Shown here: one piece after another, positions 18,012 to 26,345 of the stretch | Position numbering within the stretch: position 1 is the first letter of the stretch | Layout: each line of letters opens with the position of its first letter | NCBI GenBank assembly: GCA_013214355.1 | Contig: JABSSL010000004.1 | Location: forward strand, 124,001-188,000 | DNA: 64,000 nt | DNA from: Saprospiraceae bacterium | GTDB taxonomy: Bacteria; Bacteroidota; Bacteroidia; Chitinophagales; Saprospiraceae | Reading direction: 5' to 3' | Translations under genes and position numbers: made by a program | Notes under the pieces: generated by a model | What the model was told of the DNA's origin: nothing | Seen by the model: only the letters and a program-made list of their open reading frames with translations | The model's database searches: none

Positions 18012-21000
18012 TTACAAACGCATATCCCAATAAAAATAAGTTGGATGATCTGGTCCTAAAAGTTCTCTGAGTTCTTGGAGAAGTGAGGTTTTTTCCACTT
18101 CATAGTCGGTTCTCCATTGATTGATAATAGTCTTTACCTGTTCATCATTTTGCTGATGGCCCGATATTTTTGAAACGTTGTCGATATGAAAGATTAGGTC
18201 ATAGCAGTTTTTGAGACCCGCCAATTGACTTTGCAGGAGATAACTCTTCAATCCATTTTTTATGCCCTCATCATTGATGTTGGATGCTGTACTTTTAGCA
18301 GTGTTAATAATTTCGAAGGTATTGTATAGATTGGGCGGTTGAAGCTTGTTGCTTCTTAAAGCAAATTTGTCATAGAATCTTTTGCCAAAAACGAACATAG
18401 CCTTTGCCTCATCTCTTGTCGCATCTGCTGCCTTATCAGTCCACAGGTAGAGACTATCGGATGCAACTTGTAAAGAGTCATAGAGCCGATCAATACCGAT
18501 AAGACCGGTTAGAGCTTGCGCAATAGCCAGGTCCTGATTCCGGTAAGAGGCATCTTTAGAGAACCCTGCCAATGCTCTGCTTACATTTCCTAGGGCTGCT
18601 TGATGCTGTCCTTGTTTCCATTGCGCAAAGGAGTAATAGCTATATGCTTTCCCCAGCTGTCCGAGGTTGGTCAATTGATTATCTGATAATTCCGGCAACA
18701 CCTCCTCCAAGCGTTGGAGCCCGGTGCGATATAAGCTGTCAATAATACCTTGCCTTTCTGTGGCAATGCTGTTGGTTAAACCTGACTTTTGGGGATTGGT
18801 GAATATGTCCTGAAGTGTCATGGCTTCTTCTATATCATTTATGGCCATTCGGTAAGCTGTAATAGAAGAACCATTAATTGTTCCTGAATTGAGGGTGGAA
18901 GTGCTAGGTGCGCTTTGGCACGTTAACAAGGTAGAAGCATTTTGATTTCTATTGACTATGTAGCCGGCTAGAAATTCACCATTAAAAGTATTAAGCGTTC
19001 TAACTCTAAATGCATCAGCAAGCTGTTGTTCCAGTACTACCTTAGTACCATTGGGCAGACGGCTGATTAATGTTTGATCGTTAAGCGCTCTGTACTCCGG
19101 GCCGTCCCCGCCCCGGTTGATGGTACTCAACTCATCGGGGCTCAAAATTCGATTGCGTAGAGCAATGCCAAAATTGGCACTTCCGATGCAATAAGTATTT
19201 CCATCCCTTAAGTTGTTTGGAGATTTAGGGCAGATACTCAGGGTGCTTTTTTGTTGGTAACTTTTGGAAATGTAAGCCTCCGATAAGCCCCCATTACTCC
19301 TTTGGAAACGAATCTTATAAAAGTCTACCAACTCCTCTAAGAAGATAACCTGATCCCCTCGATTTAGGTAGGCAATTAGCGTTTCCTTGTTCAGTGGATT
19401 ATACTGAGGGTTATTTCGTCCTTGGTTAATAATCCTAAGTTCAGATAAGCTTAAAGGTCGGTTTCGTACGGAAATTACGTCGAATTGATCATTGATACAA
19501 TACGTAGAGCCCGCCTGAAGTGAATGGGGATCGATAATGGTTTTGATCTCGATTTTGAAACGCTCCCACTCTGATCGATTGAGAAAAGCTGGATCAGCTA
19601 TAATTTGATCTACGGTTAGTTGATGTTTAGTAAGTAAATAGGCCAATAAGCGTTGCGTATTTTGAAGCATGTTACTGTAATCGCCATTGGCTGCGGCGCA
19701 TAATTTTATTCCAAGCGTAGAATTATTGAGTGGAACATCACCAACACCAAGGCTATTTGCTATGGCTGCATTACCGCTCAAGTCGGTATGAAAGGCTACC
19801 TCGGATTCAGGTATGATTCGTAAAATATCCGTGTCATCTACTATATAATGTTGAGAGGTCTTACTGTCGGTTTTATTGTAAAAGTCGCGGTGTGAATGGA
19901 CCCCTGCCCTACTGTCAAAATAATGAAGTAGAATGCCTTTTACTTCCAAAATTTGATGCTTGATGGAATCCTGCATGGCGGGCCGATTATTGTCATTTTC
20001 GAGCAGGACTTCTTCAATAGGAGGAGGAGCAGGGAGAAAGTGAGATAAATTGGGCGTTATCGTCAAGGTGTCTAAAAAGGGATTACCTATTAGCTGTTCG
20101 TAGTAATAATAGGCTGAGTCTATGCGATCTAAGTAGTAATGGATAAGCCCTAATGCATGAGCGGCGTCTTGTACAATGCTATCGTGCTGTAAAGCTTGGA
20201 GCGTACTTCTTATTAACCAGCTACTATCAATTTCGGTGTCAAACTTCTTTAGGTTATTGAAGATGCCTACTCGAGAATTGTAACGCATGTAGGATAAGTT
20301 CTGCCTAGCCAAATCATAGGTAGGGTCAATCGTAAGGGCTTGAGTAATGTAGCTATTGATGTCTTCCCACCAGTCTGCTATGGATTGATTCCGAACTTGA
20401 TCTGATGATAGGTCTAGGCGGCTGAGGGAGTCTATTTTAGGATAGACCTGTTCCTGAAAAGTTTCAATGGCCAGATTGTTGTAATAAGCGGCCTCTAGAT
20501 CACTTTCTTTTGTTTGGTACGGGAAACTAATAGCTTCCTCTCCATCCGATAATGGCTTTCCTTCACGAGCGATCATAATGATACTAATGGTCAATAATAG
20601 CAGACTACCCAGGATGGCTTGAATTAGGGGTAGATCAGCTAATAAGCGTTCCCAAGTGCTGGTATCGGTTTCTTGGGGTTGTAGGAATGACTTTAGGTCT
20701 TCAGGCGAGCTTTTTTCTGCCACATTTTGGGCCAGTCCCAGTTTCCATCCTCGCATATGTTGCAACTCTGCGATCAATTGAGGGGGAAGGTGATTTTCAT
20801 CCAAAAGTCTGATAAGCTCTTTCTTAGCATTTGTGTCTTCTGGCTTGAGCGCATGAGTTTGCAATGCCAATTGACTGACCATTTCCTGCTCAGCATGACT
20901 CCCCGCTAAAGGTTCTTTAACTGACTCTAATTGTTCTTTGACGGCTTGACGGGCCAGTTGCTTTGCTTGTGGGTTGTGGTGGTGTAGGTGCTCTAGGAGT

Positions 21001-22988
21001 TCCATGCGTAGATCGTGATCAAGTTGCCCATTTCTTAACCAGCTAATTCTCGAAAGCTGCAACAATTGATCATATCCTAACGTGACCTTCAATGGCTCCA
21101 AGGCTTTACCAATGGCTATTGTTAATCTCCAATTAGGTTCAGGAAAAACAGCCAATGCCCTTAGCCATAGCCATAGATCGGGTTGACTTTCGAAGTATTC
21201 TTCCAGCTCTTCAAAATCATCCCAGTCAATGAAATTACTGTTTTCATCTTTTCTCTCATCGGCTAAGCCTCCTTGCCATGTCCAGAAGTCAGCGGGAAGG
21301 TCTTCGGGAGATTGTTGGCCTTCGATGTACCTCGCTGCCGTCTCTAGGCCCTGCAAATCTGCTGGGAAGATTGGCAAATCTTTGTTGAGTAAGTATTCTT
21401 TGTAGGTCCAGGCAACTGGGGCGATGGGACTTAATAGTAAGCGAGAAGACCATTGTGTCAGGGCCTGATGCAAAGTTTCTTTTAGCTTTGGTTGTCTACT
21501 GTAAGTATCCAGCAAACTATGCCCATCACCGAGAATAATGAGTCGGTGGTTGGGAAATCGTAATTGCAGCGTTTCTAAAGTTTGTATTTCTTTTAAATCA
21601 GCACTCCAAAGACGATTGAGATCTCCCTGATAATATAAGACTTCTAAGTAGACTTCTTGCCCACGTAACTGTGAGACAAGGTACTGAAACAGATTGCCCT
21701 GATGCCCAATTTTAGACGCTCGATCTATCAGTATCACATAATCGCTAGCTTGTGTCCCGTGCCGAAAAATTGGACTAATAAAGCCTCCTTTTTTTATGGT
21801 TTGCTTCAGCGTTTTGGGGATGTCTAGCTGGTAGTGGTTGCCTTGTTGCCGCAATCGCATGGAATTAGCAAGCTGAGCATGAGCTTCGGGGATAGGGATA
21901 TTTTGTTCTTGGGTCGGAAATGGAATACTGTAGGGGCCATGTCGTTTACTTTTCGGTAATGTGTCGACCTCCTTAGTCACTTCCTGCTGCACCTTATCTT
22001 CCTGTCGATTTCTAAATTTTAAAAACCAATTGACCCATAGCAAGATGGCTGCTAATATGATGGTAAACCAAATGATCGGATGAAGGTAGGCTAGGTGTTT
22101 TTCCTCCCCCATCCTGAGCTTTTTCATATGTAAATCATCATATTCTTCATCTCCTTCTTTGATTACTATTGGCAAGGAAATAGTCTTAGTGCAGTATTCT
22201 GATGCAGAGGTATCTTGGACCGTTAGTGTGACTTGATAGCTACCTGTTGTATCGAAAGAAAAGTATGGAGTGATTTGTTGACTGGAGCTTGGGCCTTTGG
22301 CTCCAAAGTTCCAAGTGTAGCTTATGTTTAAGTTTGATGTGTCTTCAATTTCTGCGCTAAATCTGATCTGTTCTCCTGGACTAGGATCAGGAGGGCTAAT
22401 TTGGATCCGACCCAGTTCAGGGGGGGTAGGGCACTCGACAAGCACTTCTATGATCTGCTTTAGGAAAACCTTTTCGGTTCTTGGATGGGAAACGCTCAGA
22501 TGTATATATTGTCTTGGAGATCCCCGAAAATATGATTGCTCATAGATAAAACTGACTCCCTTTTCTTGTCTTGATGTAGTTATGGTATCTCCTTCTTCAC
22601 TTTGCAAAGACCAGTCAACAACGGGAACAGAAGTGGAAAAATAGTCATTATAAGTTAGCCCTAGCTCTATCGGGGCACCGTAAGTGACTTGTATTTGAGA
22701 AGAAGGGGTAATGGTAAAACTTGGAGAAATTAGTAGAAGTGGAAGGATGCCAATAATAAGGATACTCAGCACAATATAGGTCAGGAGGCGGGGGGGGATT
22801 CTCCAACTCCAGTAAGCGTCGAGCTGAGTATATTTAGGTGCTTTGCGAATTTCCAACAGATACTGTTCGAATGCTTTCCGGAAAAGCACCTGTTCCTCGG
22901 CGCTCTTTGCAATTAGAGGCCCCATCAAGTAGCTGAGTCCTTCTGGCTTATCTAGGTAAGCCATGCCTTCCAATTCAAGGATGCGCAA
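18012..22988 (-). CDS. Giant three-TM protein: PKD, vWA-like, degenerate amidase, SH3b-like pair, helical repeats
   Basis: From TTG at 22988 the protein has 1658 residues. Layout: helical N-terminus; TM1 about 67-88; PKD-like domain about 195-275; TM2 about 303-323 followed by KFRNR; vWA-like domain from about 415 with a degenerate MIDAS (Asp422, Ser425; GDG at 487-489); helical region; TM3 about 787-807; Amidase_2 (CwlA/XlyA-like) domain about 1012-1150; two SH3b-like repeats (about 1155-1253 and 1260-1357); TPR-like tail. The amidase keeps His1022, SxHY at 1045-1048 and AFH at 1065-1067, but the expected late His and GKxCP are replaced by IIADPAF (1129-1135). Each SH3b-like repeat has Cys at both ends (1164/1253, 1267/1357), fitting disulfides. 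Three TMs put vWA in the cytoplasm and amidase/SH3b in the periplasm. The frame stays open upstream to the MoxR stop and looks coding, so the true start may be a non-ATG codon near 23090. Confidence 0.85.
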   Translation of the reverse strand: MRILELEGMAYLDKPEGLSYLMGPLIAKSAEEQVLFRKAFEQYLLEIRKAPKYTQLDAYWSWRIPPRLLTYIVLSILIIGILPLLLISPSFTITPSSQIQVTYGAPIELGLTYNDYFSTSVPVVDWSLQSEEGDTITTSRQEKGVSFIYEQSYFRGSPRQYIHLSVSHPRTEKVFLKQIIEVLVECPTPPELGRIQISPPDPSPGEQIRFSAEIEDTSNLNISYTWNFGAKGPSSSQQITPYFSFDTTGSYQVTLTVQDTSASEYCTKTISLPIVIKEGDEEYDDLHMKKLRMGEEKHLAYLHPIIWFTIILAAILLWVNWFLKFRNRQEDKVQQEVTKEVDTLPKSKRHGPYSIPFPTQEQNIPIPEAHAQLANSMRLRQQGNHYQLDIPKTLKQTIKKGGFISPIFRHGTQASDYVILIDRASKIGHQGNLFQYLVSQLRGQEVYLEVLYYQGDLNRLWSADLKEIQTLETLQLRFPNHRLIILGDGHSLLDTYSRQPKLKETLHQALTQWSSRLLLSPIAPVAWTYKEYLLNKDLPIFPADLQGLETAARYIEGQQSPEDLPADFWTWQGGLADERKDENSNFIDWDDFEELEEYFESQPDLWLWLRALAVFPEPNWRLTIAIGKALEPLKVTLGYDQLLQLSRISWLRNGQLDHDLRMELLEHLHHHNPQAKQLARQAVKEQLESVKEPLAGSHAEQEMVSQLALQTHALKPEDTNAKKELIRLLDENHLPPQLIAELQHMRGWKLGLAQNVAEKSSPEDLKSFLQPQETDTSTWERLLADLPLIQAILGSLLLLTISIIMIAREGKPLSDGEEAISFPYQTKESDLEAAYYNNLAIETFQEQVYPKIDSLSRLDLSSDQVRNQSIADWWEDINSYITQALTIDPTYDLARQNLSYMRYNSRVGIFNNLKKFDTEIDSSWLIRSTLQALQHDSIVQDAAHALGLIHYYLDRIDSAYYYYEQLIGNPFLDTLTITPNLSHFLPAPPPIEEVLLENDNNRPAMQDSIKHQILEVKGILLHYFDSRAGVHSHRDFYNKTDSKTSQHYIVDDTDILRIIPESEVAFHTDLSGNAAIANSLGVGDVPLNNSTLGIKLCAAANGDYSNMLQNTQRLLAYLLTKHQLTVDQIIADPAFLNRSEWERFKIEIKTIIDPHSLQAGSTYCINDQFDVISVRNRPLSLSELRIINQGRNNPQYNPLNKETLIAYLNRGDQVIFLEELVDFYKIRFQRSNGGLSEAYISKSYQQKSTLSICPKSPNNLRDGNTYCIGSANFGIALRNRILSPDELSTINRGGDGPEYRALNDQTLISRLPNGTKVVLEQQLADAFRVRTLNTFNGEFLAGYIVNRNQNASTLLTCQSAPSTSTLNSGTINGSSITAYRMAINDIEEAMTLQDIFTNPQKSGLTNSIATERQGIIDSLYRTGLQRLEEVLPELSDNQLTNLGQLGKAYSYYSFAQWKQGQHQAALGNVSRALAGFSKDASYRNQDLAIAQALTGLIGIDRLYDSLQVASDSLYLWTDKAADATRDEAKAMFVFGKRFYDKFALRSNKLQPPNLYNTFEIINTAKSTASNINDEGIKNGLKSYLLQSQLAGLKNCYDLIFHIDNVSKISGHQQNDEQVKTIINQWRTDYEVEKTSLLQELRELLGPDHPTYFYWDMRL

Positions 22989-23096
22989 CAGGTTTAATCG
23001 ATCATCAATACTAACCTGGAAACCAACGCCTTCGAGGTGAGCAATCAGCCCATCAAGTGGTAGAGTTATATGTGAATTATTGGAGTTGATGTGGGC

Positions 23097-24095
23097 TTAG
23101 TTTTCTTTGGGGTACAAATCTTTGATAGCCTGATAGTCTTCATTAGTCTTAACCAGCAGGGAAAGGTGGCTGGCAAGGTAATCTTTTGCTTTCCTTTCGG
23201 GCTTTTTATTAAAGATACCATCTAGCGCCAGGATGCGAAGCCAGGCTACCAATTCTGCAGTCGCCGGTTTTTTGCGATTTATATGAGTACGGAGCTCAAT
23301 AAATTCTTTGATTAATTCTTTCAGTAAGGTTTCTCCCTGCTTTGTTGGTTTCAGTTCTAATTGAGCTTGAACAATTTTTTGCAGAAGAGTAGTTCCTGGA
23401 AATTGAATATTATAAAATACACAACGTCGAAGGAAGGCATCAGGTAAGTTCTTCTCAGAATTGCTAGTCATTACTACGAAGATACGAGCATCAGCTCCCT
23501 CCTTAGCCTCTTCAAGCTTTAGATGGTGCTTGATCTTGATGAAATCAGCACTTAGTTCTGTGATTTTGAATTCGTTTTTATCAATTTCATGAAGGATGTC
23601 ATTTGGGAAGTCTCGTGGAGCCTTATCGATTTCGTCAATGAGCACTACATGGCTAGCGGGACCAGGAGTGAGTTGCTTTGCAAGCGGGCTATCACCCAAC
23701 TGAGCTGGATATGTGCAAGCAATGGCCTTCCCTAGTGCTTCCAAACGTATATACTTTGCGGTATCCGTTAAGTTGTCTTCCGTTTTTCGTTCAATATTGG
23801 CAGCCTGAAAATGAGTGAGGGCATCGTACTGATAAAACAGATCTTTAGCGGTAGACGTCGTTTTAGTATTGAAGATAAGCGGTTCGGACTGAAAATTCAG
23901 GCCATTCTTTTCTTGACTGAAGAGTGCTGCAAGTTTGTAGGCAAGCAAGGTTTTGCCAGTCCCTGGTTTGCCCGTGAGCAGTAACGGTTTGTGTAGCGCA
24001 ACTGCGACCTGTATTGCCTTTTTCAATCCTTCATCCTCTAGAATGTATTGTTCAGCTTTGAATTGGGGGGCTGGGGTTTTCCAGTTCAATTTCAT
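23097..24095 (-). CDS. MoxR-type AAA+ ATPase
   Basis: The 332-residue protein has Walker A GKPGTGKT (residues 42-49), Walker B VVLIDEID (150-157), a sensor-1-like MTSNSEKNLP near 205 and Arg-finger-type FLRRC. It is a single AAA+ module of the MoxR clade, whose members remodel or load vWA-domain partners. A vWA-like giant protein is encoded immediately downstream, and the EAD11-iSTAND gene upstream ends one base before this ATG (TAA-C-ATG). The three are therefore almost certainly one translationally coupled operon. Unlike the Bat aerotolerance operon there is no DUF58 gene nearby, so a conflict-system or envelope-stress role is favoured. Confidence 0.92.
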   Translation of the reverse strand: MKLNWKTPAPQFKAEQYILEDEGLKKAIQVAVALHKPLLLTGKPGTGKTLLAYKLAALFSQEKNGLNFQSEPLIFNTKTTSTAKDLFYQYDALTHFQAANIERKTEDNLTDTAKYIRLEALGKAIACTYPAQLGDSPLAKQLTPGPASHVVLIDEIDKAPRDFPNDILHEIDKNEFKITELSADFIKIKHHLKLEEAKEGADARIFVVMTSNSEKNLPDAFLRRCVFYNIQFPGTTLLQKIVQAQLELKPTKQGETLLKELIKEFIELRTHINRKKPATAELVAWLRILALDGIFNKKPERKAKDYLASHLSLLVKTNEDYQAIKDLYPKEN

Positions 24096-24096
24096 G

Positions 24097-25188
24097 TTAG
24101 TTGGTTTTACCAGTGTTGTATTCGGTAATGAGCCGGCATAAGAATTTCTCTACCTTCGTCATATAGTATTTTTCAGTGGGGAAATTTTGCTTGATTATCT
24201 CCTTCTGCTTTTCGGTATCCGGTTCTATTTTGTCATATTGTTCAAACCACTGAATGATATCCTGTAGACTTACCATATCTAGGGCTGGCAACATCTGTAA
24301 ATGTTGGGCCTCAGCCAGAGCCTCTTCAACCTCTGACTTGACTGTTTTTTGGTTTTCGTGATATTGTACTCCGAAGAAAAATAAGAATATTGGGCTTTCA
24401 GCTGTTAGGAGATTCCCGCAGAATTCGTGAATCAGCCACCTAGCTGCTTGTGGCGTGAAATTTGGATTCCAGTCGATTGGACTTACTTTAATGTAGATAC
24501 AGACGAAATCCTTAGGCCCAAGATGCTGTAATATAGGGCTGTCCTGCCATAAGTTTAGAATGTTTTTTTCAAGTAGGACTTCATAAAAAGGAATCTCAAT
24601 CTCTGCTACGTCGAAAAGCTTTTTAAGTATATTTTCTTTGTAGTAGCTGAGGTCTTCATTGAGCGGAGCGTAAATTTGGAAAGGAACCACTTTGCAACGA
24701 GGTTTGATATCTGGTCGCAAGTAGTCATTGAGTCGTCCTTCAATTTCGTAGCATAACCTTGTGAAGAAGCCTTCGTGAGATTGTTTTTTGGCCCCATAGA
24801 GATAATAGAACTGCGCTTTCTTTTGGATATGTAATCTGAATTGATCTTTAAATTCTTTATCCTGCTCACTCCTATTACAAGTATATTGATGATAGTCGTT
24901 AAGCCAAATCTTTTGTTTTGGGGTGGTTTTACCTCGCTTTTCTATCTCGGTAAGTCTATCTAAAGTGGCTGCCGTGATCTTATTGATTTCCGTCTCATTT
25001 TCTTCTCTAAGTATTACCCCCTGTTGATATCTACTTTTGATACTATTTAATCTGCTTTGTAGGGCTATAACATAGTTATAATCTGCTGGGCTGTTTGTTT
25101 CAACCCAGTTTAGTAGAACATCAAGGCCTTCCCTGATCTTACCTTTTCGAATTAATTCTCTGATATTGGCCAATTCTGAGCCTGGCAT
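24097..25188 (-). CDS. EAD11 plus inactive-STAND (iSTAND) protein
   Basis: The 363-residue protein has two parts. Residues about 5-82 form a helical bundle (IRELIRKGKIREGLDVLLNW, then LQSRLNSIKSRYQQGVI) matching effector-associated domain 11, a death-like adaptor domain. Residues about 94-355 match the iSTAND family: an opening DYHQYTCNRSEQ, then FYYLYGAKKQSHEGFFTRL in place of a working P-loop. No GxxxxGK[ST] is present, so it should not hydrolyse NTP and probably acts as a sensor or scaffold. It is the first gene of the operon with MoxR and the giant vWA/amidase protein. EAD domains usually recruit effectors by pairing with a second EAD copy; I see no second copy in this window. Family matches are from memory of the patterns. 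Confidence 0.8.
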   Translation of the reverse strand: MPGSELANIRELIRKGKIREGLDVLLNWVETNSPADYNYVIALQSRLNSIKSRYQQGVILREENETEINKITAATLDRLTEIEKRGKTTPKQKIWLNDYHQYTCNRSEQDKEFKDQFRLHIQKKAQFYYLYGAKKQSHEGFFTRLCYEIEGRLNDYLRPDIKPRCKVVPFQIYAPLNEDLSYYKENILKKLFDVAEIEIPFYEVLLEKNILNLWQDSPILQHLGPKDFVCIYIKVSPIDWNPNFTPQAARWLIHEFCGNLLTAESPIFLFFFGVQYHENQKTVKSEVEEALAEAQHLQMLPALDMVSLQDIIQWFEQYDKIEPDTEKQKEIIKQNFPTEKYYMTKVEKFLCRLITEYNTGKTN

Positions 25189-25469: not shown

Positions 25470-26165
25470 TCACTCCACTACCTCAATATCTATGGCACTC
25501 GTATAGTATTCAATGGAGGATACTAAGCTAATTTCCTCATTCTCTTCGACATTATCTTGTCTCTTAACTAGATATAGTTTTCCTGGTCCTGGGCGGAGCG
25601 GAGCGGTCTGATCTGGCTTCAGATCAAATTCAATCGTTTTGGCTGGTCCACTGAGGGTAATGGAGTAAGCACGAGACTCTTCATCGGAGAATAGAAGGAC
25701 CAGCTGCTCATTGGCTTTGATTAAACCTCCATTCACGACTAGCTTCATACCTTTGCTTTTGCTGATCTCTCCTTTGATGAAAAAGTCTTCAATGGGAGGC
25801 ATTTTTAGCAAATATTCGCGCTGTTGACCTTCATCATCTTTTAAATTGAAGGGGAATTGACCCGTGTATTCGCCCTGCCGCTCCAGTTCATACCTAATGA
25901 CTTTCCCTTGGATGTTTTGCTCCGTCATGCCACTGGACTGAAAAGCTACGCCACCTTCAATCCGCTTGGGCCGAGACTCGTCCGGAGAAATCCCTTCGCT
26001 AAAGGACGCTTGAGCTTTTAGCTGGGATTCATCAGTCAAGTAGCGGACAAAGAAATCAATGAAAAGTTTCTCTTTGGGTTTAGTGGTCTTGGGGGCACTG
26101 TTTTGGCAGGCGCCTAGGAGTATAGAGGCACCTACGATCAGAGATAGAAAGTAAAATCGTTGCAT
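25470..26165 (-). CDS. Lipoprotein of unknown function
   Basis: Starting at the ATG at 26165 gives 231 residues with a textbook lipoprotein signal (MQRFYFLSLIVGASILLGAC). The open frame extends upstream to 26345, but the added 60 residues have an atypical composition and would bury the signal. The mature part is beta-rich and ends with a strand pattern (YYTSAIDIEVVE). A middle segment contains FNLKDDEGQQREYLLKMPPI. I recognise no family. It is in the same direction as the EAD11 operon but 281 bases upstream, so it is probably a separate unit. Confidence 0.7.
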   Translation of the reverse strand: MQRFYFLSLIVGASILLGACQNSAPKTTKPKEKLFIDFFVRYLTDESQLKAQASFSEGISPDESRPKRIEGGVAFQSSGMTEQNIQGKVIRYELERQGEYTGQFPFNLKDDEGQQREYLLKMPPIEDFFIKGEISKSKGMKLVVNGGLIKANEQLVLLFSDEESRAYSITLSGPAKTIEFDLKPDQTAPLRPGPGKLYLVKRQDNVEENEEISLVSSIEYYTSAIDIEVVE

Positions 26166-26345
26166 AGGTCGATTAACTAAATGAAAGCGTACGAAAATCA
26201 GGTTTATACATGAAAAAGAGAAGCGGGGTTTGGCTTTATAATCTATTGGCCAGCTATCGGCACACCAAAGTGTAATCCTAGGATCATCTATCCTTGGTGT
26301 GCAAAAGAATATAGCTAAAGCTTGTAAGCCCCTCCAGCTGGACAT

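Follow-up and report, generated by a model that had tools for sequence, protein, structure and literature searches.

A degenerate Amidase_2 domain at the variable C-terminus of a vWA protein in a proposed MoxR-vWA-iSTAND system of Saprospiraceae

The window analyzed in this study is a stretch of 64,000 nucleotides from a Saprospiraceae bacterium (assembly GCA_013214355.1, contig JABSSL010000004.1, positions 124,001 to 188,000). All window features described below are encoded on its (-) strand. The window encodes a large membrane protein of about 1692 aa (18012..23090), and very probably this protein is the vWA component of a ternary system that carries a dead N-acetylmuramoyl-L-alanine amidase domain. 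We consider that the non-catalytic amidase acts, with a probability of about 0.5, as a peptidoglycan sensor similar to the animal peptidoglycan recognition proteins (PGRPs), signalling inward via vWA, MoxR and iSTAND proteins. Residues are numbered according to P0001, the 1694-residue reading of the vWA frame, except for single amidase residues, which keep the numbering of the initial annotation (P0001 minus 36).

The amidase domain (19554..19967) is recognized by Pfam, PDB search, alignment and structural model. The domain alone scores 41.9 bits against Pfam Amidase_2 (PF01510; cut-off 26, E-value 1.6e-10), and its best believable sequence relatives in the PDB are two XlyA entries (E-values 1.2e-8 and 6.1e-8). 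PDB matches to TAL effector repeats were rejected as spurious, being sums of weak repeat matches with no stretch that passes alone. An AlphaFold2 model was built on an alignment of 13 sequences (alignment A4), with a predicted local distance difference test score (pLDDT) of 67.9 and a predicted template modelling score of 0.70. Its nearest structure by both structural aligners is XlyA (Z 13.6 and 13.4; Foldseek E-value 9.3e-8), with a root-mean-square deviation of 2.8 over 130 residues. The next-best matches are PlyL and AmiA/AmiE, with LytA, AmpDh2, AmiD, AmpD, T7 lysozyme and animal PGRPs (Z 6.9–7.8) below these. The location and XlyA-type identity given in the initial annotation are thus borne out by sequence, fold and relatives: the residues it listed, His1022 (LLHY), His1047 (SQHY), His1067 (AFH), Trp1141 and Phe1144, are all present, and the structure prediction that it suggested as a check against the XlyA/CwlA type recovers the amidase fold.

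The catalytic roles of the His/Glu/His/Lys/Cys positions are known for the Amidase_2 family. According to the alignments, the sole zinc ligand retained in the window domain is the first zinc His (residue 1022; 19923..19925). The active-site Glu of the GIE motif is replaced by Lys1095 (GIK; 19704..19706), a change that had escaped the initial annotation, and the Cys of the CP pair is absent, with an Asp-Pro pair (Asp1132) nearby in the alignment. In addition, nine residues are deleted between II and ADPAF, directly before Ala1131-Asp1132 (19593..19598), where the stand-alone relative L002 reads RHFDITGKD. In the relatives, both the second zinc His and the conserved Lys are located in this loop. 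Both residues had been described as missing, and they are, but they were deleted with the loop and not replaced by IIADPAF. The window domain thus lacks two of the three zinc ligands as well as the active-site Glu and Lys of an active zinc amidase, and looks catalytically dead. The initial annotation had also considered that a shifted ligand, with Asp1132 in place of Cys, would still allow catalysis. The DP pair of the window does align near the CP pair of the relatives, and since Asp can serve as third zinc ligand in AmpD, Asp1132 could in principle act in the same way. At the level of sequence, this proposal fails on the absence of the second His, Lys and Glu, on the deletion of the loop bearing His and Lys, and on a second fused copy (L088) that has no zinc ligand at all; we regard residual catalysis as extremely improbable.

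The two fused copies differ from all complete stand-alone relatives examined. We searched 398 genomes of the family (Saprospiraceae) with alignment A4 and found matches in 38, with frames longer than 1000 aa only for the window and L088, the latter from a genome (G355) of another genus; all other frames are 201–429 aa long. Among the 39 distinct domains compared, the complete H/E/H/K/C set is present in each of the 37 stand-alone ones and in neither of the two fused ones. The full set is also found in five more complete stand-alone copies (5/5, bringing the total to 42/42), while a sixth, cut by the contig end, retains all four positions that are visible. Among relatives from named public genomes, which overlap the other sets, 77 out of 80 are complete, and the other three (L287, L295, and L296) are partial matches whose missing positions lie outside the match. 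The homologues found here with a complete catalytic set, which the initial annotation had named as evidence against a dead amidase, are stand-alone enzymes and not vWA fusions. The eleven stand-alone relatives in A4 share 24–33% sequence identity with the window domain. L002, the only stand-alone relative scanned with Pfam, contains three SH3_3 repeats. At the position of the SH3b repeats of the stand-alone relatives, the window protein contains two Cys-containing repeats (18822..19535), for which we do not claim an SH3b identity because the model of amidase plus repeats is too poor (pLDDT 46).

In L088, the first His is changed to Tyr, Glu to Thr, the second His to Ser, and Cys to Ser, with Lys kept, and an FGE-sulfatase domain follows the amidase. 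A change from Cys to Ser is also known from non-catalytic PGRPs. Both fused copies keep the SxH[Y/F]xVDD, PExE, A[F/Y]H, GIxLC, and W..F positions; judged by alignment, the fold side is kept and the chemistry is lost. A search of named public genomes with the single domain gave no match. An alignment-based search, whose patterns are unsuited to copies as degenerate as L088, returned 80 of 82 relatives, none of which lies in a frame longer than 506 aa or has the vWA region. A phylum-wide search (E-value up to 1e-8) placed the subfamily in three out of 395 genomes, with that of the window as the only fusion.

In the phylogenetic tree, the end branches of the fused rows are very long (5.96 and 3.27 vs a median of 0.058). 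L088 groups with a stand-alone enzyme from the same genus (93/80, short of the value at which the tool takes a branch as sure), and the position of the window copy is uncertain. The tree separates the two fusions, yet the test does not reject that they arose once (p-AU 0.453). The long branches and the rarity of the fusion (two out of 398 genomes) would suit a captured amidase that is rotting as a functionless passenger. Nevertheless, the 1694-residue frame has no internal stop, the groove and fold positions that the two copies share have been kept while the ligands were lost, and Amidase_3 domains in the same slot of related vWA proteins, described below, show the same kind of loss. Simple decay is therefore very unlikely in our view.

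The host protein is encoded by the last gene of a putative operon with the order EAD11-iSTAND, MoxR, vWA on one strand. The first gene encodes a protein of 363 aa (24097..25188) with an iSTAND and an EAD11 domain (Pfam E-values 1.6e-16 and 9.8e-13, respectively, both above cut-off). The gene between the other two encodes a MoxR-type AAA+ ATPase of 332 aa (23097..24095) with the P-loop GKPGTGKT (Pfam AAA_5, E-value 2.3e-11). We propose that this operon is a MoxR-vWA-iSTAND ternary conflict system as defined by Kaur et al. (2020; PMC7159879), whose sections on these systems derive the role in biological conflict as a proposal from gene context. The label ‘vWA protein’ of the initial annotation finds only partial support by sequence: 11 out of 30 family members match VWA_CoxE at E-values up to 1 (best 1.5e-4), and the window protein itself stays below cut-off (E-value 0.2). 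Its divergent, CoxE-like vWA region (21297..21989) was delimited by family-wide conservation, and a search of the PDB with a profile of this region found no relative. At E-values up to 1e-10, the vWA region has relatives in 101 of the 398 family genomes.

A similar gene organization is seen in related loci. We examined the upstream genes at eleven loci with wall-type domains in the slot, one of which (L107) is cut by the contig end. In all ten readable loci, a MoxR-like P-loop gene precedes the vWA gene and is itself preceded by a gene of 361–415 aa. According to Pfam, the latter encodes an iSTAND domain above cut-off in six loci (L067, L086, L088, L109, L110, and L119) and below cut-off in three (L106, L120, and L130), while L149 has EAD11 only. 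EAD11 scores above cut-off upstream in L067, L086, L088, L106, and L149. L088 shares the EAD11-iSTAND, MoxR, vWA order of the window. The genome of the window contains 32 EAD11 matches (loci L195–L224). Ten EAD11 proteins were scanned, of which one contains a protein kinase, one tetratricopeptide repeats, one leucine-rich repeats, and seven EAD11 alone.

Hydropathy predicts three transmembrane spans in the vWA protein, at residues 105–123 (22728..22784), 341–359 (22020..22076), and 824–842 (20571..20627) of P0001. The first span is flanked by four Lys/Arg residues before and none after it, and a PKD domain that is predicted to be periplasmic (22176..22382; Pfam E-value 2.5e-9) lies between spans 1 and 2. 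Based on the charges around span 1, the position of the PKD domain, and the fact that MoxR must be met inside the cell, the vWA region is predicted to be cytoplasmic and the amidase domain periplasmic. Homology to the second vWA protein of the same genome stops at residue 1027, just before the Pfam amidase match at 1051–1166, and the amidase thus sits at the point where C-termini are swapped.

To describe this slot, 98 C-termini of vWA proteins (56 including the window, and 42) were scanned with Pfam; the counts refer to the 25 commonest families, so that those of rare domains are lower bounds. FGE-sulfatase (45), CarboxypepD_reg (22), and WG repeats (13) are followed by Amidase_3 (6), Glucosaminidase (at least 3), OmpA (at least 1), and LysM (at least 1). 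Amidase_2 occurs in two, the window and L088, a count also backed by an amidase profile run over the same loci, which gave no other long frame. Wall-type domains, Amidase_2 included, are present in at least 12 out of 98 proteins. The OmpA and LysM domains in this slot, together with the SH3_3 repeats of L002, would agree with a role as wall anchor only, in which the domain and the following repeats tie the complex to peptidoglycan in the manner of OmpA/Pal without any sensing. An anchor has no need for a new domain each time; yet even L051, the nearest vWA relative (43% identity in the vWA region), has another domain in the slot, Fib_succ_major. We consider mere anchoring unlikely.

Amidase_3 has an amidase fold unrelated to Amidase_2. 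It is found in the predicted periplasmic slot of L107, L109, L110, L119, L120, and L130, with L109 and L110 being near copies. The catalytic positions were judged by mutual alignment and, for L107 and L120, also against solved enzymes. L107 has lost the second His, L130 has Glu changed to Gln, L119 has the first His changed to Tyr, and L109/L110 have lost all four positions. Four out of five distinct cases are thus degenerate, with at least one catalytic position lost. In L100, L094, and L081, caspase-like Peptidase_C14 matches were also seen at a long distance C-terminal of the vWA region, and the copies in L094 and L081 look degenerate by eye.

For a tethered periplasmic domain that has an amidase fold without the chemistry, the binding of peptidoglycan or muropeptides is the most plausible role. 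The initial annotation had equated a dead amidase with a sensor; the predicted topology, the recurrence in the slot of domains that bind or cut the wall, and a published proposal make this the best reading, with peptidoglycan binding as the presumed part of it. We infer the topology, the loss of activity, the binding, the signalling and the output of the following scheme. An amidase of the XlyA type would have been captured and, after losing catalysis, would now serve as the periplasmic ligand-binding module of the vWA component. Its groove would bind peptidoglycan, or muropeptides released by wall damage, in the periplasm. Binding would alter the vWA protein through its third transmembrane span, the cytoplasmic vWA part would engage the MoxR AAA+ ATPase, and the EAD11-iSTAND protein would be switched to recruit EAD11-bearing partners. 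The published proposal is that of Dore et al. (2024; PMC10907252), in whose sections on the subject vWA proteins with variable CLec domains are proposed as sensors that signal via MoxR to a third component. The sections of Kaur et al. (2020; PMC7159879) on iSTAND systems describe wall-associating domains (PEGA, OmpA, PASTA, Sel1) behind transmembrane segments.

Several observations weigh against a sensor. In the same sections of Kaur et al. (2020; PMC7159879), the C-termini of the vWA proteins are seen as effectors, in many cases as inactive enzymes that work as decoys or dominant negatives. The model of the amidase domain has medium confidence, and the flanking charges alone do not settle the direction of span 3. 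Amidase_2 is rare in the slot (2/98), the commonest domain there, FGE-sulfatase (45/98), is uninformative about the wall, L120 keeps all four catalytic positions of Amidase_3, and the three slot glucosaminidases keep their ES motif as judged by eye. The slot is thus not uniformly dead, though dead wall enzymes recur in it. The Amidase_3 cases may share ancestry, and their losses need not be independent.

The decoy proposal deserves separate attention: the inactive enzyme would bind a factor of an invader (for instance a phage lysin partner) or compete for the wall. Beyond the published suggestion for inactive enzymes in such vWA proteins, it gains from G355, a genome that holds both the dead fusion and a stand-alone amidase with the full catalytic set. 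The genome of the window, on the other hand, yields no second member of the amidase subfamily at E-values up to 1 and has only two other Amidase_2 genes. Moreover, the tethered domain is predicted to be periplasmic and would be ill placed for blocking an intracellular invader, and other slot domains (OmpA, LysM, FGE, PKD, TSP_3) resemble binding modules. We consider a decoy rather unlikely. The window system fits a sensor better: its variable part is predicted outside, the iSTAND protein bears an EAD, and 32 EAD11 matches occur in the genome.

Non-catalytic animal PGRPs such as PGRP-SA and PGRP-LC combine an Amidase_2-like fold with an incomplete zinc site and are peptidoglycan receptors. The window model matches bee PGRP-SA (Z 7.6), fly PGRP-LCa (Z 7.4), and fly PGRP-SA (Z 6.9), values below 8 being weak according to the tool. 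Unlike these receptors, the window domain is structurally closer to bacterial lysins and has other signalling partners, and its peptidoglycan binding is a prediction. With XlyA/PlyL-type lysins and the amidase-SH3b proteins of Saprospiraceae it shares the fold; the stand-alone amidases of the family have the full catalytic set, whereas the window copy is dead and part of a membrane protein of about 1690 aa. Of the published ternary systems (PMC7159879, sections describing them), the window has the EAD-iSTAND, MoxR and divergent vWA genes, the transmembrane segments and the variable vWA C-terminus, as well as wall-associating and inactive-enzyme domains as themes, but those sections mention neither a dead Amidase_2 nor a dead Amidase_3 at this site. 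The CLec vWA sensors (PMC10907252, sections on these proteins) likewise have a variable C-terminal binding domain proposed to signal through MoxR, but in them the binding part is a CLec fold diversified by a diversity-generating retroelement instead of a dead amidase. The word ‘amidase’ is absent from the main text of PMC7159879 and PMC8195603. A literature search on inactive amidases as peptidoglycan sensors surfaced, at the level of titles, only autolysin-Drosophila work, and the other papers listed on ternary systems with amidases do not, by their titles, concern a dead-amidase slot.

Should the sensor reading be true, inactivated wall-cutting enzymes would serve bacteria as receptors, in the way that non-catalytic PGRPs serve animals. 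A class of predicted conflict systems would then gain a concrete candidate trigger, peptidoglycan or its periplasmic fragments, and a comparison of vWA proteins would provide a collection of exchangeable sensor domains.

The start of the vWA gene differs from its listing. As a listed open reading frame, it extends from 22988 to 18012 (1658 aa) with a TTG start at 22988, while the frame stays open up to 23096, immediately behind the MoxR stop codon, without any ATG, GTG or TTG upstream of the conserved N-terminal motif. We infer a start at ATC (23090-23088), two codons past the MoxR stop, where relatives have ATG or TTG. Codons preceding the motif were compared in 47 vWA loci of the window type (the window and 46 among L051–L103). 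Twenty-three loci have ATG, GTG or TTG no more than 12 codons away, and 20 of these codons are located at positions -7 to -10. The other 24 loci have ATT, ATC, ATA or CTG exactly at position -9 in 16 cases (16/24), vs 0/22 in the group with canonical starts, and ACG is found at -9 in two further loci. With one locus per 60%-identity cluster (33 clusters), a near-cognate codon is present at -9 in 12 out of 17 loci without canonical start, vs 32 out of 247 elsewhere between -20 and -1 (binomial 7e-8, for a position picked after seeing the data). This background is inflated by a conserved Ile at -2 (11/17); without positions -5, -2, and -1 it becomes 17/196 (binomial 7e-10). As a weak control, an in-frame ATG precedes the P-loop in 44 of 44 upstream P-loop frames.

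Near-cognate initiation is known for infC. The pattern looks like systematic near-cognate initiation across the vWA family, which would throttle the level of the vWA protein. Read-through or frameshifting from MoxR into vWA was set aside because, relative to vWA, the MoxR stop is found in each of the three frames (11, 12, and 6 of 29 loci). If the pattern is real, this is a gene family with common use of a rare mode of initiation, and finders of open reading frames clip its N-terminus; the window gene would be listed 34 codons late. Only tentatively, we extend the sensor reading to the family: immune-type systems of Saprospiraceae might have recruited and disabled hydrolases of unrelated folds (Amidase_2 and Amidase_3) as periplasmic receptors for wall damage on vWA proteins, with translation held low by near-cognate starts (AUC/AUA/AUU/CUG). 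Such receptors would be bacterial counterparts of the PGRP receptors of animals, with MoxR and EAD-iSTAND as their readout in the cytoplasm.

The strand of the operon also carries, upstream of it, a gene of 291 aa (25470-26345) with no Pfam match above cut-off. The genome of the window encodes a second ternary system (L065, contig C175) composed of EAD11-iSTAND, MoxR, and a vWA protein in a frame of 1793 aa, the C-terminus of which shows no amidase but TSP3-like repeats by eye. Finally, a single frame of 2539 aa on contig C192 of this genome holds four EAD11 matches.
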